Shown: positions 27,488 to 62,842 of the stretch, in pieces | Position numbering within the stretch: position 1 is the stretch's first letter | Layout: every line of letters begins with the position of its first letter | Origin: Turbatrix aceti | Lineage: Eukaryota > Nematoda > Chromadorea > Rhabditida > Panagrolaimidae | Assembly (NCBI GenBank): GCA_963969345.1 | Contig: OZ017770.1 | Location: 6,271,246 to 6,335,245, forward strand | Direction of reading: 5' to 3' | Length of the DNA stretch: 64,000 bases | Program-made: the position numbers and the translations under genes | Notes under the pieces: model-generated | Database searches by the model: none | Seen by the model: only the letters and a program-made list of their open reading frames with translations | What the model was told of the DNA's origin: nothing

Positions 27488-29610
27488 ATGCGCGCCTACG
27501 CTCAGGCCCTTGACCGTGGCGACAACATAGTTGTCGCTTGGCTAGACAGCATCAAAGGTTTGTTTTACTTTTAATTGCTCCAATTTTTTTGCATTTGTTT
27601 TTTGTAGGCAACGAGACCATCGAGCATCCTTATGCTGCCGTAGCCGGTGATCGTGATATCGGACCCACCCAGACCCATCTCGAGGTTGAGGTTAATGTTC
27701 GTGAAGTTGGCGTCGGAACCGAGAGTGCTGACCGTAACGTCAATCCTGAAAATGACCACGCGGATGTATGTTTTTGTTTTACTAGCTGAACTCACTGAGT
27801 AATTTGACTATTTGCAGACGGTGTCGGTGGTTTCGTCTCCTCTGCCGGCAATGTCCCGGGATGGCACCGGAGCAGGCGATGCTTCGTTGCTCAATGTCAA
27901 TGGCAGTCGCGGTGTCAGTGGGTCGCACGTCAATCGAGGCTACAACACTGGCTCGTCCCGCGTGTACCGCACTCGAGGTGACATTCACTTTTGATGTGCA
28001 TTAATGCTTTTTTTGTTTGTTTTTTAGGCATGGACGCCTTCCAACGCGTTTATCCTGTTGTCCGGGGACAACAACATCCACATCGTGGTGTCCGTCGTGG
28101 TTTTCATGTCAACGATTTACTCACCACAAACTACCATCAGCACCGTCGTGGCAATCGCGGCGACTTTCTCAACAGCGGTGCGTTTGGATCCCGCTTTCGC
28201 GGACGCGACCGTAATTTTGCTCCTCAGCGTAACGCCGGTCCCAACACTCGTTTTCTCGATTTCGACGATCCTGATGCATACACCACACACTACCATCAGC
28301 ATCGTCGTGGCAATCGCGGCGACTTTGGAAACAACGTTGCGCTTCGCGGTCGCGACCGTGGATATGCCGATCGTGTTCGCACTATTCCAAACGAACGCAC
28401 TGGAGCCGGTGATGTTCGTGGAACCGAAAATGCCAACCGCAAAAGCGATTCTGCAGACCAAAATGGTGATGTATGTTTTTGTTTTTCTTGCAGAACTCAC
28501 TGAGTAATTTGAGTATTTGCAGACTGCTTCGGTGGTTTCTTCTCCACTACCGGCAATCTACATGTCAAGTGAGAGCACCGGAACCCATGATCCTTCACTT
28601 GCCATTCATAACCTCGCCATCAAGGACGAGGTCGCCACTGACGGCTACGGTGCTTCATCGTCTCGCAATGGCCCCGAACGTCTTCACAACCCACCGGCGC
28701 AAGTCGCCCAGAACAACAACGGTCACAACGGAATGTGTTGGGGAACATTTTGGAAATTCTAGTCGAAATTTTGCCAAAAAGTTGCTTTCTCTACGAAAAG
28801 TTTGTATCGTAAAATTCACCTGTCTGAGTCATTTACAGGCGGAGCTACGAACCCTTAAAACGCGTTTTTGCCATTTTCGACGCTTTTTGGCACGTTGTAG
28901 CAAAAAAAATACGGCATTTCAAATGCAGAGGTCCAAATTAAATCGACGTAGTTTTTGATGAAGAATCCGATAAAAATATAAAAATATAGTTTTGCCACCT
29001 TGAAAAATGCCTTACCAATGTTGCCACTGTGACCCCATATTAAATGTAATTTTTGGCATTTTTCAAGGTGGTAAACCATTATTTTTATCAGATTCTCCAT
29101 CAAAAACTACGTCGATCAATATGTACCTCGGCTTTGGAAATGCCGTAATCTTTTAGCTATAACGTGCCAAAAATCGTCAAAAATGGCAAAAACGCGATTT
29201 TTGGAGATCGTAACTTCGCGATTTTTGGCGATAGTTCAGGCAGGTGAATTTTACGGTACAAACTTTTTATAGTAAAAGCAACTTTTTGGCAAAATTTCGT
29301 AGAAATTCCACAACGTTCCCTAACCCTTTCCTTTTCAGGTGCCGCTCGGCCACGCTTCAAATTCGGTTGGTTTTACTTTTAGTTTGCTTCAATTTTCTTG
29401 CGTTCGTTTTTAGTCCGACCCGTTCCGCGTCCTCTACCTCCCGAGTGTTGGGCCTACCCTTGGTCATGGCGTCCAGATCCAGACTCGGAGTAGCTGGCGA
29501 CTCCCATCTCTCCATTAATGTATGTTTTTGTTTTTCGTGCTGAACTCACTGAGTAACGTTGCTATTTACAGGATGAATTTTCTTTCAACAACGCTCAGCG
29601 GCATCTCTAA
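27488..29610 (+). CDS. Unknown Arg/Gly/Asn-rich repeat protein, split by a MITE intron
   Basis: Exons 27488-27557, 27608-27765, 27818-27977, 28028-28470, 28523-28734, 29339-29365, 29414-29519 and 29572-29610 give 404 residues with every junction in phase. The product is polar and probably disordered: a YHQHRRGNRGDF motif occurs twice in exon 4, with many RGRDR and GN repeats. The opening SVVSSPLP is shared by exons 3 and 5. No signal peptide, domain or family is recognised; RNA binding by the RG-rich part is only a guess. The gene grew by repetition of an exon-intron unit, since three 52-nt introns are nearly identical. The fifth intron (28735-29338) is almost entirely a foldback transposon. 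If that intron is not removed, the protein ends 13 codons into the element. Confidence 0.6.
27766..27817 (+). repeat. Repeated 52-nt intron, copy 1
   Basis: Begins gtatgtttttgtttt, contains aactcactgagtaa and ends tatttgcag. It is the same length as, and close in sequence to, the introns at 28471-28522 and 29520-29571. Confidence 0.8.
28471..28522 (+). repeat. Repeated 52-nt intron, copy 2
   Basis: Differs from copy 1 mainly in the segment just before aactcactgag. The exon start that follows (SVVSSPLPA) also matches the exon after copy 1. Confidence 0.8.
28726..29334 (+). mobile_element. Foldback MITE, copy 1, functioning as an intron
   Basis: The two halves of this 609-bp element are long inverted repeats (for example gtttgtatcgtaaaattcac near 28800 and its complement near 29245). 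It is flanked by TCA at 28723-28725 and 29335-29337, a TNA-type duplication. A homologous copy lies at 62106-62719. Nine element bases stay in the upstream exon, a GT at 28735 acts as donor, and TSD bases CA plus the next host G form the acceptor CAG after a CCCTTTCCTTT tract. Splicing there restores the frame. Confidence 0.75.
29520..29571 (+). repeat. Repeated 52-nt intron, copy 3
   Basis: Same gtatgtttttgtttttc start and aactcactgagtaa core as copies 1 and 2, ending tatttacag. It precedes the final short exon. Confidence 0.75.
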
Positions 29611-30349
29611 CTTGACCCTTACCGTTGCAGCCGGACAAGTTATTGTTTTCTCCTCTTGTTTTTAGAACTGTTGTTTTTTTCACTTTTTTACTCACTTCTA
29701 GTTTTATTACTGTTTACGTTTTACATTTACGTTAAGTACTGTTACTCTTTCCTAGTATGTTACTTTAGTTTACTTGTGTGTTATAAAATTATTGGAAGGA
29801 AGACTTTTTCACGGTACTGGTAAGAAAAGTGGGGGGAAAAATTGAGTGGAAAACGTACATTTTGTAAAAAAATTAAAATCCTGAATGCCTGATAGTAATA
29901 ATTCAACAGACCTTTACGGAAAATGATGTTAATTGTATTGCTGACAAGATGTTAAGGTAGCATACATTGACAAAACCATTTACAACCTAGCCCACTATCT
30001 GGTATGTGGAATATTTTTTTACAGTCCATTTAGAAAAAAAAAATATGACAAAAAAAGTATCTTTTCGGGAATATGGTAACTTTATATGCATTTTACTGCT
30101 GTGATGATTAAATGTACTGCTAAATGATGAAAAAACGTAATTTTTGTCAGTATTTTTTAAGTTTACCTTTGTCTTAAAAATTAAATTATAAACAAATTTA
30201 TATTGAACCAAACTTTCAAAAACATAAAAAGTGTTTATCCCGCGTAATAAGTCACACTACCAAAAAAAAAGTTTCCATATTTTTTTAAAGAATAGATTTT
30301 TATTTATTCATCGAAAAATGTTTACATTGGTTCATTGCAGTTTAATTTA
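29611..30349. other. Convergent 3' UTR region
   Basis: A/T-rich DNA between the ends of the unknown gene and bestrophin. No coding sequence is seen. Confidence 0.5.
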
Positions 30350-32067
30350 TTACTTGCTTTTTGTGTTTTCATCCTCCTCGGTAACAGTTTCCAAGATATG
30401 CGGAGATGATGCCCGTGTGTCTGTAATTTTTGTTACTTAAAGATTTATTACTGAAATTAATGCTTACCAAAACCATTGTTTTCTATTCCGATAGGGGCTG
30501 GATCGCGTTCAATGTCAGACACAGGCAGTGACTGAGCTCTATAATTAGCCTGTTAAACAGATTCACAAATTAATTTTCACTTACCTCGACACTTGAAGTT
30601 TCTTTTTTAGTCGTTTACTGACGTTTCTGAATGATAATTTAGTGTGTAAATCCATGCTGTCAAGAGAAAGGGTAGATCCTGTATGCGGCACCATTTTAAC
30701 TTTTTCGGACTCTCCAGGCACAACAAAGTTGGTTGCTGATCCTATCAGAGCGTTAACGGTTATTTTCGCTGTTTCTTCCGAATACAGCGGTCTGGCACCG
30801 GCTTTGAATGAATCACGTGTTTGTTTAGGGATGTCCTCGTGCGTCTGCTCGACCATCGAAAGTGCTATTGTAATATTGCGATCTATGATATAGTTACATT
30901 CATAGTCATCGTCATCTTCTCCGAGAGGGTTCAACAACGCCTCCGCAACTTTAAGCCAACCCATAAAAAATATGAATTGAAGCATTGTCATAAGGGGTAC
31001 GTATAAATCAATCTGCAAAAAAGAGACGTCGCTTTTTGTGATGTTTCAAAGATATCTTACAGTTTTTTCCTCGTGGTTTGTATTGTGAATAAGATACTGC
31101 CGGCTGATGAGACAGACCAAAAAATACACCCTTACTGCAAGAAAAACCACTTGAGGGTAAGCCAATGGAACAGGTACCCAGTCATAATTGCACAAAGTAC
31201 GCAAATGTTCATTATACGTCTTGACTTCCTAAAGAGAACTTTTGAACTTTGCAGAGAAACACGGAACTCAGACATACGTTTAAAAGTTGATTGAGCAGCA
31301 CGTCAGCCACGATTTTTTCTTTTCTGCGAAGGTCAATGCAAAGAGCAAAAATCCAATTTATAGGCAGCCAGTATTTGTTAAAATCGTTGTCGACATTATC
31401 CATGATTTCTTTTTCATGCATTTGTAAGAAGCCTAAACTATCATATTTCTGTGGTTGCATGAAAAAAACATTTGCGCAACTCACCAGAGTCCACGACGGC
31501 ATCAAGGTTGGGAAACCTCTTGCGAACTTTTATGCTGATATCTCTCAAAACCAGAACTTGAGTCAGGCATAGGTACCGAAGTATGTTACGTTTTTCAATA
31601 CGCGTTTGTTCGTCATCTCCATTTACGTAATTTGCCACGTAAAACGCGACGCTAAATATTTGGCGAACGTAATGAAAAAAAAACGGTTTGTCATACTCAC
31701 TTGTCTACAAAACCGATATTTGAAAATATCTCGTTCCATCTGTCAAACACCTTGGTAACGAAGAAACCAAGCAGAAAAATAAGTGGGATTTTATCATCCA
31801 ATTTGTCATCCATGTAAGAAGCAAGGGCTTCGAATTGGCTGGAATCCCCGTATTTTAAACAACGCTGCGAAGCATTAAATAGACTTACTACTGCCATGAT
31901 CTCGGCATTGCGTATCTGTACAGTACGGTAATAATGAAGTACAAGATGCACCAGCTGATCAACTCCGTCATAACACTTTTCCAAATGGAACCTCGCCATC
32001 GAAAAATGACTTTGAGAAAGGTCCATGACGAACTGGATGAGACGTCTAAGTTGTATGATATTGTCAT
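30350..32067 (-). CDS. best: Bestrophin (anion channel)
   Basis: Eight exons (32067-31889, 31838-31701, 31651-31485, 31432-31278, 31228-31061, 31012-30585, 30538-30468, 30420-30350) give 458 residues, all in phase. Bestrophins form pentameric, often Ca2+-activated, chloride channels. Diagnostic parts are the N-terminus MTISYNLDVS, FRWRGSIWKSV, PLIFLLGFFVTKVFDRW, RFPNLDAVVDSGF, YDWVPVPLAYPQVV, FFMGWLKVAEALLNPLGE, and the Ca2+-clasp acidic run GEDDDDY (residues 300-306). The tail is variable and hydrophilic, as usual. The exon 1/2 intron (50 nt, GTAAGT donor) was chosen because it gives YRYAMPRSWQ followed by FEALASY as in the family; a longer open frame in another register there is a shadow. 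Confidence 0.93.
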
Positions 32068-33296
32068 TGAGTACTAAGGCAGACTGATGAAAAACAGCTA
32101 CAAGTGATCAACGAATTTCGGGAATAAGACAACCCATCAATGAGGCCTAAATACGTAACGGGAATTGCAAATAACATAAAAACACAACAGTGACATAAAA
32201 CCTAGACGATCTGCAAAGCCTGGCCACAATGCTTAAATACAAAAAAAAGTCATCAAACAAAAAAATCAACAAAGAGAACAACCAGCCAGGGAAGGACAGT
32301 GCGAGTTAAGGAGTTGGCCGTCGGTGGAAAAATATCATGAATTAAAACCTGTTTGGCAGCACAAAAGATAGATGTAGTAGTTTTTTGAATTTAAAGAACA
32401 CTCGAAATTAATTGCGTTTAATTATCGATAAGTTTTGTATCGTATCTGTCAAAGTTGTTATATTCATAATTTTGGAACAAAGAATTTTGTTTTTTCGACC
32501 AACTTGTGTATTTGCAGTGGGCGCCAGATAAACAAACAATGCGTATACTTTGGAACACGCAACAATTAATAGCTATTCCGATCTGGCAACAGCGATAACG
32601 GTTGATTAATTTTTTTCAGCTAAACATATACAGGCAAGTATGAATCGTATATATAAGCATGTCAAAAAAGTTGTTGATTCAGAAAAAACCATGAATCGAG
32701 AAAAGCATTAGTCAGGCCCAAATCAACGCGGGGGTATCATGGGATTTTATAAGCCAATAATGAATAATTTTTAAAAATAAATTTGAAGAAATCGTAGCAT
32801 TTATATATTCAAAAAATCTCGGAGCGCCTTTTATAATAGATTTTTTTACGTTTTCATGTCACGTTTTTCCGCATATGTTTTATATTTTTAAGCTTTTTTA
32901 CAACAAATTGTTTTATGAATAATTTTAAAAATGTAAACGAAAAAAAAATTCGTAATATTTAAGGGTTTCCAAAAAGAACAACTTTTGTATAACTTTTTTT
33001 CGTTTTTTTCTTTTGTTTTTACGTTTTTACGTTTCAAATGTTTAAGCCGTGGCTCTCACAACTTGTATTGTCAAAAAGGTGACAAATCTTGTGACGATGC
33101 TTCAGGCAAGCCAGACAGAAATTAAATGAATCATCCGGGTCTTACAGATGACACCTGAACGACGTGATCTATGAATTTATTTACGAATTAATTAATATCG
33201 TGAACAGTGCTTGCGATCGTGATCGAGAACTCCTACAACCAGCATAGGGTAAAAATTATCCGTCAAACAAGAAGGCAATTTGTGTGTCATTGTTGA
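32068..33296. other. 1.2-kb intergenic region
   Basis: A/T-rich, with no conserved coding sequence. It should hold the bestrophin promoter on its left and the 3' UTR of the coiled-coil gene on its right. Confidence 0.5.
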
Positions 33297-35154
33297 TTAC
33301 TCTAAATTTTCACTTTCCGAGTTTGATACGTCTTTTGTCTTTGTTTGTTCACGATTTAATTCTTGATGTGCAGAGGAATAATTATTATTAGCGTTTGATT
33401 GCCTGCTACCCCTGAAGCAATTATAAAAGTAAATAGATAGCTGATTAAAACACGACAACTTGCTCACCTTGATGCCAAACTAGCACTGCGTCGTTTCGCC
33501 TGCGAACTACCGCTGCGAGACTGATATCCGGAATTTGAGCCATCTGTAGGTCGAGAGCGGAGAGCAGGGATGACTGGGGAGCTGCCACGGATGTCATCAT
33601 AGGCTTTCTTTCTCTCCCACCACTCGTATTTTCTAGCAGGACCGGACATTTCGGCAGACAGACCGCCATCTGAAACCAAAATTCAAATAGAAACCTGACT
33701 TTGTGATAGGATAATAACCATGAGACGATGACGTAGATGCGTTTCGCGCATTCATCAGCGATACTTTGGTTGCTTTTTTCTCTGCCATTATTGCTTTTTC
33801 GCGAGCAACGCGTTTTTCGGCTTCCATTTCCGCCAACTGACGTTGCGCTGCTATTTTGCTTCTTAAAAATTTATTTTGTTTGTAAAAACATAAATCGTGT
33901 TATCCACTGTGATACCTCCATATTTCGCGCTCCTCGAGTTGGCGTTCTTGTAATTTTTCAATTTCTTTGCGCTGCCGATTTTCTTCAATTTGTCGCAGCA
34001 GATCTAATTTGTGCTGATGTTTCTCGAGTCGCTTTAGCTCGTCAGGGTCATACGGGTTGACATAGCGCGTTGTCGTAGCAGAAGGTACGTATGTGTTGCG
34101 TGCAGCAACCGTCGGATCGTTATAGAACGATCCATAGGAGTTGGAAGTGCTGAAGTTGAAAGTCGGAATAGGCGCCGGTGGCGCGGATGACAGACTGTTC
34201 ACATCCGAGTCCTGATAATAATTTTTTCTTGTTTTTTGTTGAAATAACAAAAAAATAATAATTACCTGGTATATAGACTCGATCGAAGGTACCGGAGCAA
34301 GTCCTTGTCCGACATTCCAAGCAGCCGTACCACGTTTTCCAGAACGTGGTTGGGGATTTCCTCGTGCCCATGGCAAATCCGTGTGCATCACAGGAGCATC
34401 CTAAAAGTATCGAGTGTCGTAAAGTTTGCAGTCATTTTGTTTAGTCTAAGCAGTAGTTTTTTTGCCTGTTGCTAGCAGAGACAGAAGAAATATGCATTGG
34501 TTACGAAATCATCTATGGTGTGCAATTTTTTTTTTATACGTAATGGTCAGTTACCTGTTTTTGATTTTCAAATGGGTACGACTTGGATAGCATTTTTTCA
34601 GGAGGATTTGGATAGGTGCTAGTTGCCATTGGTAGCGGGTGAGCATAATTTGCATTGTGACCGTTGGCCATTTGCATCATAGCAAGGGCAACATCGTTTT
34701 GACTGTTTCCGAAGAGCGGTACACTTTGTGAAGATGACTTTTGAATTGCGCCTTTATTGCCTGCACCCATACCGAGCGCAGCAAATTGATTTGTGATGAG
34801 CTGACTGAGCTGTGGGTCAATAGGTTGGTAGAATTGCTGACCGTTGATGACGACAGATCGAATTCCTATGAGCTGTGTGTCGCTGGGGATAAGTTCAAGG
34901 GCTTTTTTCATTGAATTTTGGTTTAGAGGATTTGTGTAATCCATCTGTTGGTTTGAATTGCTGAAGACAGAATATCCGGATAGGGAGTTATCCAGAGGCT
35001 TGTCTTTAAGCTGGGTGAACGCTGCATTGTTCTGGTGGATGGCTTCAAAAGTAGAGTAAGGCGCGTGAGAATCATTTCTGTTAACGTGCTGGGGTCCGCC
35101 GGGCAGGGTTACGGAATTTTGTGTAGAAGGATTAAAAGCGTAGGTTCTTACCAT
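33297..35154 (-). CDS. Coiled-coil protein, possibly CCDC66/CSPP-like
   Basis: Six exons (35154-34555, 34400-34266, 34211-33916, 33861-33719, 33669-33468, 33411-33297) join in frame to 496 residues. The first 260 residues are polar, low-complexity and Gln/Asn/Pro-rich. A charged coiled coil follows at about 310-410 (DELKRLEKHQHKLDLLRQIE, then ENRQRKEIEKLQERQLEERE, then REKAIMAEKK). The pattern of RQIEENRQRKEIE resembles the conserved helical block of centrosomal/ciliary CCDC66-type proteins, but this is a resemblance of composition and I am not sure. The tail is Ser/Asn-rich. The start ATG is followed by GTAAGA, so it could also be read as a splice donor and the true start might lie upstream. 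Confidence 0.6.
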
Positions 35155-62094: not shown

Positions 62095-62842
62095 ATGGCC
62101 TCTTACAAGGAAAGTGTCAGGGTTCATTTTGGAATTTCTTCACGAAACTTTGCCAAAAGTTTGATTTTACTACGAGAAGTTTATACTGAAAAATTCAGTT
62201 CCACCGCTCATGATCTGACAGAGTTACGGTAGTCGAAAATCACGTTTTTGCCATTTTTGACGATTTTTGGCACGTTCTAGCTAACAAACAACGTTATTTT
62301 CAAAATCAGGGTGTGCATCAATCGACGTAGTTTTGCATGGAGAATCAGATAAAAATATAAAAATTTAGGTTTGCCACCTTAAAAAATGCCGAAATTTGCA
62401 TTTGAAAAGAGGTCACAATGCCAACATTGGTTTCGGCATTTTTCAAGGTCACAACCCTACGTTATTATATTTTTATCTGATTCTCCATGCAAAACTACGT
62501 CGAATGATGCACACCCTGATTTTGAAAATAACGTTGTTTGTTAGCTAGAACGTGCCAAAAATCGTCAAAAATGGCAAAAACGTGATTTTCGACTACCGTA
62601 ACTCTGTCAGATCATGAGCGGTGCAACTGAATTTTTCAGTATAAACTTCTCGTAGTAAAATCAAACTTTTGGCAAAGTTTCGTGAAGAAATTCCAAAATG
62701 AACCCTGACACTTTCCTTGTTAGTGGTCCAACGATACCGTCTGTTGGTTGCATCTGTTTTTCTCTTTCTGTACAATTGTTTGTTTTTTAAATTAATACAG
62801 GCGCATGCATTTTGCATTTTGGCAGCGTTGATCGGCGAGTAA
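62095..62842 (+). CDS. Small ORF re-formed if MITE copy 2 is spliced out
   Basis: ATG at 62095, donor at 62114 inside the element and acceptor AG at 62722-62723 give a 45-codon frame. It reads MASYKE, then MVQRYRLLVASVFLFLYNCL, and ends LAALIGE. The frame is also open upstream to about 61909. It has one hydrophobic segment and no family match. The length could arise by chance, so this is a hypothesis tied to the element. Confidence 0.2.
62106..62719. mobile_element. Foldback MITE, copy 2 (614 bp)
   Basis: Ends are CAAGGAAAGTGTCAGGG and its exact complement; the inverted repeats run almost to the centre (cgacgtagttttgcatgg near 62323 and its complement near 62490). Flanked by TTA at 62103-62105 and 62720-62722. 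Same family as 28726-29334, with better preserved termini. No transposase frame. Confidence 0.88.

Follow-up and report, generated by a model that had tools for sequence, protein, structure and literature searches.

A palindromic MITE inserted into a coding exon of Turbatrix aceti as a candidate intron with an acceptor drawn partly from its target site

Whether a transposable element that has landed in coding sequence can be taken out of the transcript again as an intron, and which of the splice signals needed for this are brought along by the insertion itself, is the question raised by a locus in a 64,000-nucleotide stretch of the genome of the nematode Turbatrix aceti (the window, to which all positions refer unless stated otherwise). 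A first-pass annotation had noted there a foldback MITE within a predicted coding exon and had proposed that it has become a working intron. The features bearing on this proposal are collected in Table 1.

Table 1. Features at the insertion locus, given in window positions; a slash marks a proposed boundary of exon and intron.
Feature	Positions	Strand	Basis
Host exon 1 (predicted)	27488..27557	+	reading frame, codon score
Host exon 2 (predicted)	27608..27765	+	reading frame, codon score
Host exon 3 (predicted)	27818..27977	+	reading frame, codon score
Host exon 4 (predicted)	28028..28470	+	reading frame, codon score
Host exon 5 (predicted), last nine bases derived from the element	28523..28734	+	conserved up to 28722 in the paralog on contig C5; dN/dS 0.47 over 66 codons
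Target duplication TCA, left copy	28723..28725	.	sequence; family rule TNA
Palindromic (foldback) MITE, subfamily A, old copy	28726..29334	+	arm pairs, identity to the consensus, ends and target duplication as in the family
Proposed 5' splice site AAT/GTGTTG (weak)	28735..28736	+	score -1.43, 4.5th percentile
TAG ending the unspliced frame	28760..28762	+	sequence, reading frame
CTAAC, candidate branch point upstream of the acceptor	29320..29324	+	sequence; role inferred
Target duplication TCA, right copy	29335..29337	.	sequence and family alignment
Proposed 3' splice site CTTTTCAG/G (strong)	29337..29338	+	score 3.19, 90th percentile
Host exon 6 (predicted)	29339..29365	+	reading frame, codon score
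Host exon 7 (predicted), containing the TAA (29516-29518) that ends the empty-site frame	29414..29519	+	codon score, similarity
Host exon 8 (predicted), with stop	29572..29610	+	reading frame; codon score near zero (-0.17)

The element and its target duplication (TSD) are beyond chance. The ends of the element and the two flanking copies of TCA lie exactly where they had been placed and agree with those of the rest of the family, and the description as a foldback MITE is borne out by a long palindrome with four inverted arm pairs, 86-95% complementary in the window copy (e.g., 91% for 28764-28827/29236-29299 and 86% for 28857-28939/29118-29200), and by an extreme predicted RNA fold energy (MFE -324 kcal/mol, z = -29), which was reached by 0 of 20 shuffled sequences. 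Relative to a subfamily A consensus built from 18 other copies, from which the window copy was excluded, the window copy has 87.3% identity (12.7% divergence) and the 18 copies have 91-98%, their inclusion in the consensus slightly favouring them in this comparison. Judged by its divergence, the window copy goes back to an old insertion or has at the least been changed a great deal. Its left end carries one additional C (CAACGG vs CAAGG in the family), and its last base is a T found in this copy only, as opposed to G in 24 of 25 copies, which turns CCTTG-TCAG into CCTTT-TCAG. Because the copy is old, the present splice signals would in part be the product of such later mutations, e.g., the final G-to-T change and the extra C at the left end.

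A BLAST search of the 59.9-Mb genome (28 contigs, the large contigs C1, C2, C4, C5 and C6 together making up 59.6 Mb) gave 40 places from 80 rows, the palindrome matching in both orientations; as scoring covered 40 of 561 candidates, the family occupies at least 40 places. With a fuzzy motif, both ends and an identical 3-bp TNA duplication were found in 25 of the 40 places, including the window copy, and about 22 of these are independent: the left end of L030 is truncated, its match looking fortuitous, and L015 to L017 have common flanks. The remaining 15 places are without an end or a matching duplication by this motif. The ends of the family read CAAGGAAARTGTTAGG.. and its complement. The duplications are preceded on the left by C in 23 of the 25 copies (exceptions being the window copy with G and L030 with T) and followed on the right by G, also in 23 (exceptions being L003 and L036); the target of the family is CTNAG, of which TNA is duplicated. 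As the target's own G comes after the second TNA, the right junction of the family, CCTTG-TNAG, ends in AG (23 of 25), and as the target is palindromic, this AG arises in either orientation of insertion. The acceptor at the locus had been described as composed of the end of the element, the duplication and one host G. This stands with respect to the AG junction, whereas the G is not an incidental host base but the last base of the CTNAG target.

Termini were counted genome-wide with two patterns, giving 103 + 108 (211) for the first (controls 2 + 3) and 69 + 62 for that of subfamily B (controls 0 + 0), the two sets overlapping; estimated from these counts, the copies examined are probably less than half of the family. 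Terminal inverted repeats (TIRs), a constant short TSD and many copies of similar length mark the family as a MITE family. Its 3-bp duplication and CTNAG target are presumably PIF/Harbinger-like, MITEs of that group having a 3-bp TSD inside a palindromic CTNAG-like target, and the identical TNA in 25 of 40 places (about 22 of them independent) is in line with this. It differs in that the duplication is TNA and not only TWA, in the TIR sequence CAAGG.., and in that a search of the genome for DDE_Tnp_4 (PF13359), as expected of an autonomous PIF/Harbinger partner, gave 0 matches, for which reason no superfamily is assigned.

With respect to the host gene, the eight exons joined yield 404 codons plus stop (1215 nt) without an internal stop, precisely the spliced frame that had been claimed. 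Contig C5 contains a fragment that aligns with 28420-28722 at 84%, and a comparison of exon 5 with this paralog over 66 codons gives dS = 0.286, dN = 0.133 and dN/dS = 0.47, both gaps being multiples of three. Each of the five upstream exons has a positive codon score in the frame expected of it; for exons 3 and 4, other frames are positive as well, at lower values (26.2 in a second frame vs 33.1 in the expected one for exon 4). Downstream of the element, exons 6 and 7 together score 4.45 in the skip-0 frame, with a single stop at the very end, and 5.32 in skip 1, the frame of the first-pass annotation, the 95th percentile of 324 control values from 29700-34000 being -3.7. Only the latter frame resembles the protein encoded by exons 2-3 (scores of 49 and 52 under two gap costs), a likeness attained in 0 of 1000 residue shuffles for each and, with the best frame chosen out of three, in 1 of 500 base shuffles; when the DNA itself is compared, exons 6-7 are not significantly similar to exons 2-3 (79 of 300 shuffles). 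The claim of an insertion into a coding exon is thereby upheld in so far as exon 5 appears to be coding up to 28722 and exons 6-7 are coding-like. An insertion into a pre-existing intron is unsupported here, the sequence to 28722 being coding and common to the C5 paralog.

For the host protein, no homologue was found at E ≤ 0.001 among 8000 candidates scored, nor any Pfam family at E ≤ 1; on these comparisons the host is an orphan, internally repeated nematode gene. An Rfam search of the window gave 0 matches. Introns 2, 4 and 7 (27766-27817, 28471-28522 and 29520-29571), together with the intron of the C5 paralog (L057, 1973-2023), are more alike than the surrounding exons, and apart from one deletion, intron 4 and the intron of the paralog are identical (51 of 51 bases), the paired exon 5 having a dS of 0.29. 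This could be due to gene conversion, to constraint on the intron or to rapid change of the exons. A genome pattern search for these introns as a dispersed introner found only the three (the C5 copy, with one base deleted, was not returned). In the vicinity of these sequences, L057 2533-2766 (minus strand), just downstream of the partial host-gene copy on C5, resembles what is presumably a Ty3/gypsy integrase fragment, and a minus-strand open reading frame at 30581-31045 of the window reads like what we take to be a piece of a bestrophin.

The splice signals were scored with donor and acceptor matrices trained on 198 introns from 84 gene models in 231,111 bases; these are self-trained and noisy (G at -1 in 90 of 198). 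By this measure the proposed donor is weak and the proposed acceptor strong (Table 1), the donors of the host's six own introns lying between the 51st and 67th and their acceptors between the 61st and 94th percentile. The acceptor score is helped by the final G-to-T change, which is private to the window copy among the 25. Donors at 28650 (56th percentile) and 28722 (24th percentile) outscore 28735, and when joined to 29338 both run into a stop in exon 7. In the predicted fold, G28735 pairs with C29326 and the CTAAC at 29320-29324 with 28737-28741, U28736 and the acceptor AG being open, so that according to the model a hairpin of the two ends would hide the signals within them from the spliceosome; co-transcriptional splicing might precede such folding. 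If the element is left in place, the TAG is the 13th codon from 28724, as the first-pass annotation had it. The agreement of frames across the proposed junction is weakly beyond chance, as a given pair of donor and acceptor fits one time in three; of the nine GTs between 28631 and 28762, two lead to the same C-terminus when 29338 is the acceptor.

Entire gene models were compared by the sum of codon and splice scores with a charge of -7 per intron, a measure in which two-unit differences are meaningless. Truncation at the element's TAG scores 70.6, the splice 28735-29413 scores 69.3 and thus lies above the originally proposed pair 28735-29338, which with 68.4 comes third among the 182 donor-acceptor pairs for which a path through the downstream exons was scored. 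There follow the splice 28722-29338 and the skipping of exon 5 (66.7 each), the skipping of exons 5-7 (28471-29571, 62.8) and the splice 28650-29338 (61.6). The gene with the element cleanly removed scores 71.9; this contains about -6.5 charged to a junction absent from such a gene, so that the corrected value is about 78. The C-terminus of the 404-codon frame is also reached from four other junctions, namely 28660-29338, 28735-29413, 28471-29571 and 28631-29571. Because two-unit score differences are meaningless, sequence alone cannot choose among these models. The element may be removed as an intron. The original proposal is supported in part: the coding flanks, the strong acceptor and a downstream frame resembling exons 2-3 speak for a MITE turned intron, and the weak donor, the paired signals and the score of the truncated model speak against it.

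A further part of that proposal, that the insertion was neutralised by immediate splicing, fails on the arithmetic of the reading frame. The spliced mRNA keeps TCA and nine bases of the element and loses the acceptor G, which amounts to +8 nt relative to the empty site GGTCAGGTGCC with its one TCA, i.e., a frameshift unless further indels have occurred and not the gain of an intron without a change of frame. The empty site GGTCA/GGTGCC that had been suggested and the splice product are thus in different reading frames: clean removal leaves exons 6-7 in the skip-0 frame, which ends at the TAA in exon 7, and splicing places them in skip 1. Had the left end been of the family type, lacking the additional C, this splice would have placed exons 6-7 in skip 2, with a stop in exon 7. 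Either the ancestral protein would have ended at 29516, or later indels would have mended the frame; the likeness of exons 6-7 to exons 2-3 appears to favour frame repair, and direct scoring of codons gives no preference for either alternative. The C5 paralog fails as a substitute for the empty site, since its match ends at 28722 and is followed by other sequence.

The simplest competing reading is that the element stays unspliced, so that translation would keep the five upstream exons and end at the TAG after 356 residues, with exons 6-8 as relics or 3' UTR. Under the same model its score is no worse than that of the splice (70.6 vs 68.4), it does without the weak donor at 28735, and in the C5 paralog, where the DNA match stops at 28722, the frame continues for about 70 codons without visible similarity, so that the C-terminus may be dispensable. 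It sits less well with exons 6-7, which are still coding-like though the element has drifted by 12.7%, and with the unusually good acceptor at 29338, and is regarded as possible and on balance rather unlikely. Alternatively, better host sites might be used in the form of exon skipping or of other donors, e.g., a 28470-29572 join, which gives 289 residues with the same C-terminus because introns 4 and 7 are copies that agree in phase, a 28734-29414 join, or donors at 28722 or 28650. The 28471-29571 intron pairs a 67th-percentile donor with a 61st-percentile acceptor, 28722 and 28650 both outscore 28735, and the 28735-29413 splice exceeds the original pair (69.3). Every one of these totals is nevertheless below that of truncation (62.8, 66.7, 61.6 and 69.3 vs 70.6), the joins of 28722 and 28650 to 29338 are those interrupted in exon 7, and skipping would lose a segment under purifying selection, which makes such a solution clearly unlikely.

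Two other readings would dispense with a donor in the element or with splicing as an issue altogether. It would be very unlikely that the prediction does not correspond to a gene, or that the gene has already died; the want of a homologue among the 8000 proteins scored and of a Pfam domain, the odd likeness of introns 2, 4 and 7, greater than that of neighbouring exons, and the near-equality of a second frame in exon 4 (26.2 vs 33.1) would fit this, while the dN/dS of 0.47 and in-frame gaps against the C5 paralog, the positive scores of all five upstream exons in the expected frame and the six ordinary-looking short introns contradict it. Trans-splicing, by which TTTTCAG at 29338 would take a spliced leader, so that the gene is split and exons 6-8 form a separate short transcript, uses acceptors that lack a good upstream donor, and the strong acceptor at 29338 is in this situation. 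An in-frame ATG lies within exon 7, and the genome has SL1-like RNA genes (43 matches, all below the Rfam cut-off), which carry GGTTTAATTACCCAAGTTTGAG, presumably the nematode SL1 leader, followed by GT. The product would, however, comprise only about 30 residues, and this reading appears very improbable indeed. SL1-like RNA genes lie at 3376694-3418638 of contig C6 (G000:C6:3376694-3418638), mostly in 1644-nt steps, apparently as a tandem array, and more of them cluster on C4.

Removal of the element by the junction 28734/29339, at least part of the time, is put forward as a tentative reading, plausible if somewhat short of probable. It starts from a copy, now old, of a multi-copy palindromic MITE family that inserted at GTCAG in coding sequence and duplicated TCA, a step that the sequence shows. 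Almost all insertions of this family (23 of 25 copies) have from the outset an AG directly behind a pyrimidine-rich end (..CCTAACAYTTTCCTTG-TNAG). The acceptor would then have been improved by the change of the last base from G to T (TTTTCAG/G), the change being observed and selection for it presumed, and this ready-made 3' splice site might, at least sometimes, have been joined to the weak donor AAT/GTGTTG of the left terminal repeat at 28735. The element would in this way be removed as a 604-nt intron, with nine of its bases staying in the mRNA of the 404-codon frame. Since the present open frame requires one or more indels in addition to a clean insertion, the insertion was probably not neutral at birth; candidates for having restored the frame are the additional C at the left end or an alteration of the flanking exon, and in the spliced frame exons 6-8 have remained open despite the 12.7% divergence of the element.

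Other copies of the family bear on the question of whether it makes introns in general. In L022, in a gene presumably for a ribonucleotide reductase large subunit-like protein, and L013, in what we take from its translation to be an EGF-like-repeat gene, the MITE lies inside an intron of about 50 nt without it, with the intron's own donor before and own acceptor after the element; since they lie inside pre-existing introns, these copies need no splice site of their own. In a context scan of 26 copies, including the window copy, the strict flag, which requires coding over 120 nt to the left and right of the element, was raised for L022 only; it concerns the strand opposite to that of the gene, the copy being intronic on the gene's strand. 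The scan is weak, as the strict flag missed the window copy, whose downstream 120 nt include intron 6. Consensus and scan left out L016 and L017, which have the flanks of L015, and L030, and the scan added three copies and the second window copy. In L004, a frame of 316 codons spans the site after clean removal and presumably reads like a retroelement protein, so that this copy may well be exonic in another mobile element; the corresponding frames in L003, L020, L025 and L030 have 132-150 codons. A family-wide introner finds no backing in one flag, for the intronic L022, among the 26 copies of this weak scan. That the family is a latent introner in nematodes, supplying a TNAG acceptor and, in its pyrimidine-rich terminus, a branch-point-like YTNAY motif in both orientations and in need of a donor, which the window copy would have found before being tuned by the G-to-T change and an indel, is quite unlikely.

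The splicing of transposons from genes is already known, and the window copy would, if real, be a further transposon-made intron. In C. elegans, Tc1 insertions are reportedly spliced from pre-mRNAs, as Rushforth and Anderson are said to have described in 1996; sites in or beside Tc1 are reportedly used and small sequence changes left behind. Here, too, a DNA transposon in a nematode gene would be removed by splicing; unlike the Tc1 cases, which are mutant alleles with RNA evidence, the insertion in the window is an old one, of a palindromic MITE with a TNA duplication, and its splicing is predicted from DNA. The 'de novo synthesis of an intron' by the maize element Ds, reportedly the title phrase of a 1994 study by Giroux, would likewise concern a TIR element as an intron in a host gene, Ds being a plant hAT element with an 8-bp TSD, in contrast to the 3-bp TNA of the MITE.

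Introners have been described as non-autonomous DNA elements with TIRs and a TSD from which a splice site is partly taken, some of them adding codons (e.g., +12 nt in Aureococcus), and, among animals, were reported from no more than two groups (Gozashti et al. 2022, PMC9860276), the main text of that article not containing the string 'nematod'. The window MITE shares with them the TIRs, the TSD and, as a candidate, a splice site partly from the TSD; introners make many introns per family, in contrast to one candidate among the 26 copies scanned here. What may be new is that, in this nematode MITE family, the target rule would act as a constant supplier of acceptors. Clear introns from identifiable transposons are few in animals, and a copy whose target rule is known and whose age can be measured would reveal the stepwise course from insertion to intron, with a ready-made site, a recruited site and later frame repair. 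The supply of AG at the right junction by a palindromic CTNAG target can be checked in any genome with this MITE family. Within the window itself, a second member of the family (subfamily B) is found at 62106-62719, with a TTA duplication and arms that are about 95% self-complementary, and positions 1-2200 hold another large inverted repeat with main arms of 591 and 470 nt (97%) and a 75-nt unit in two tandem copies.
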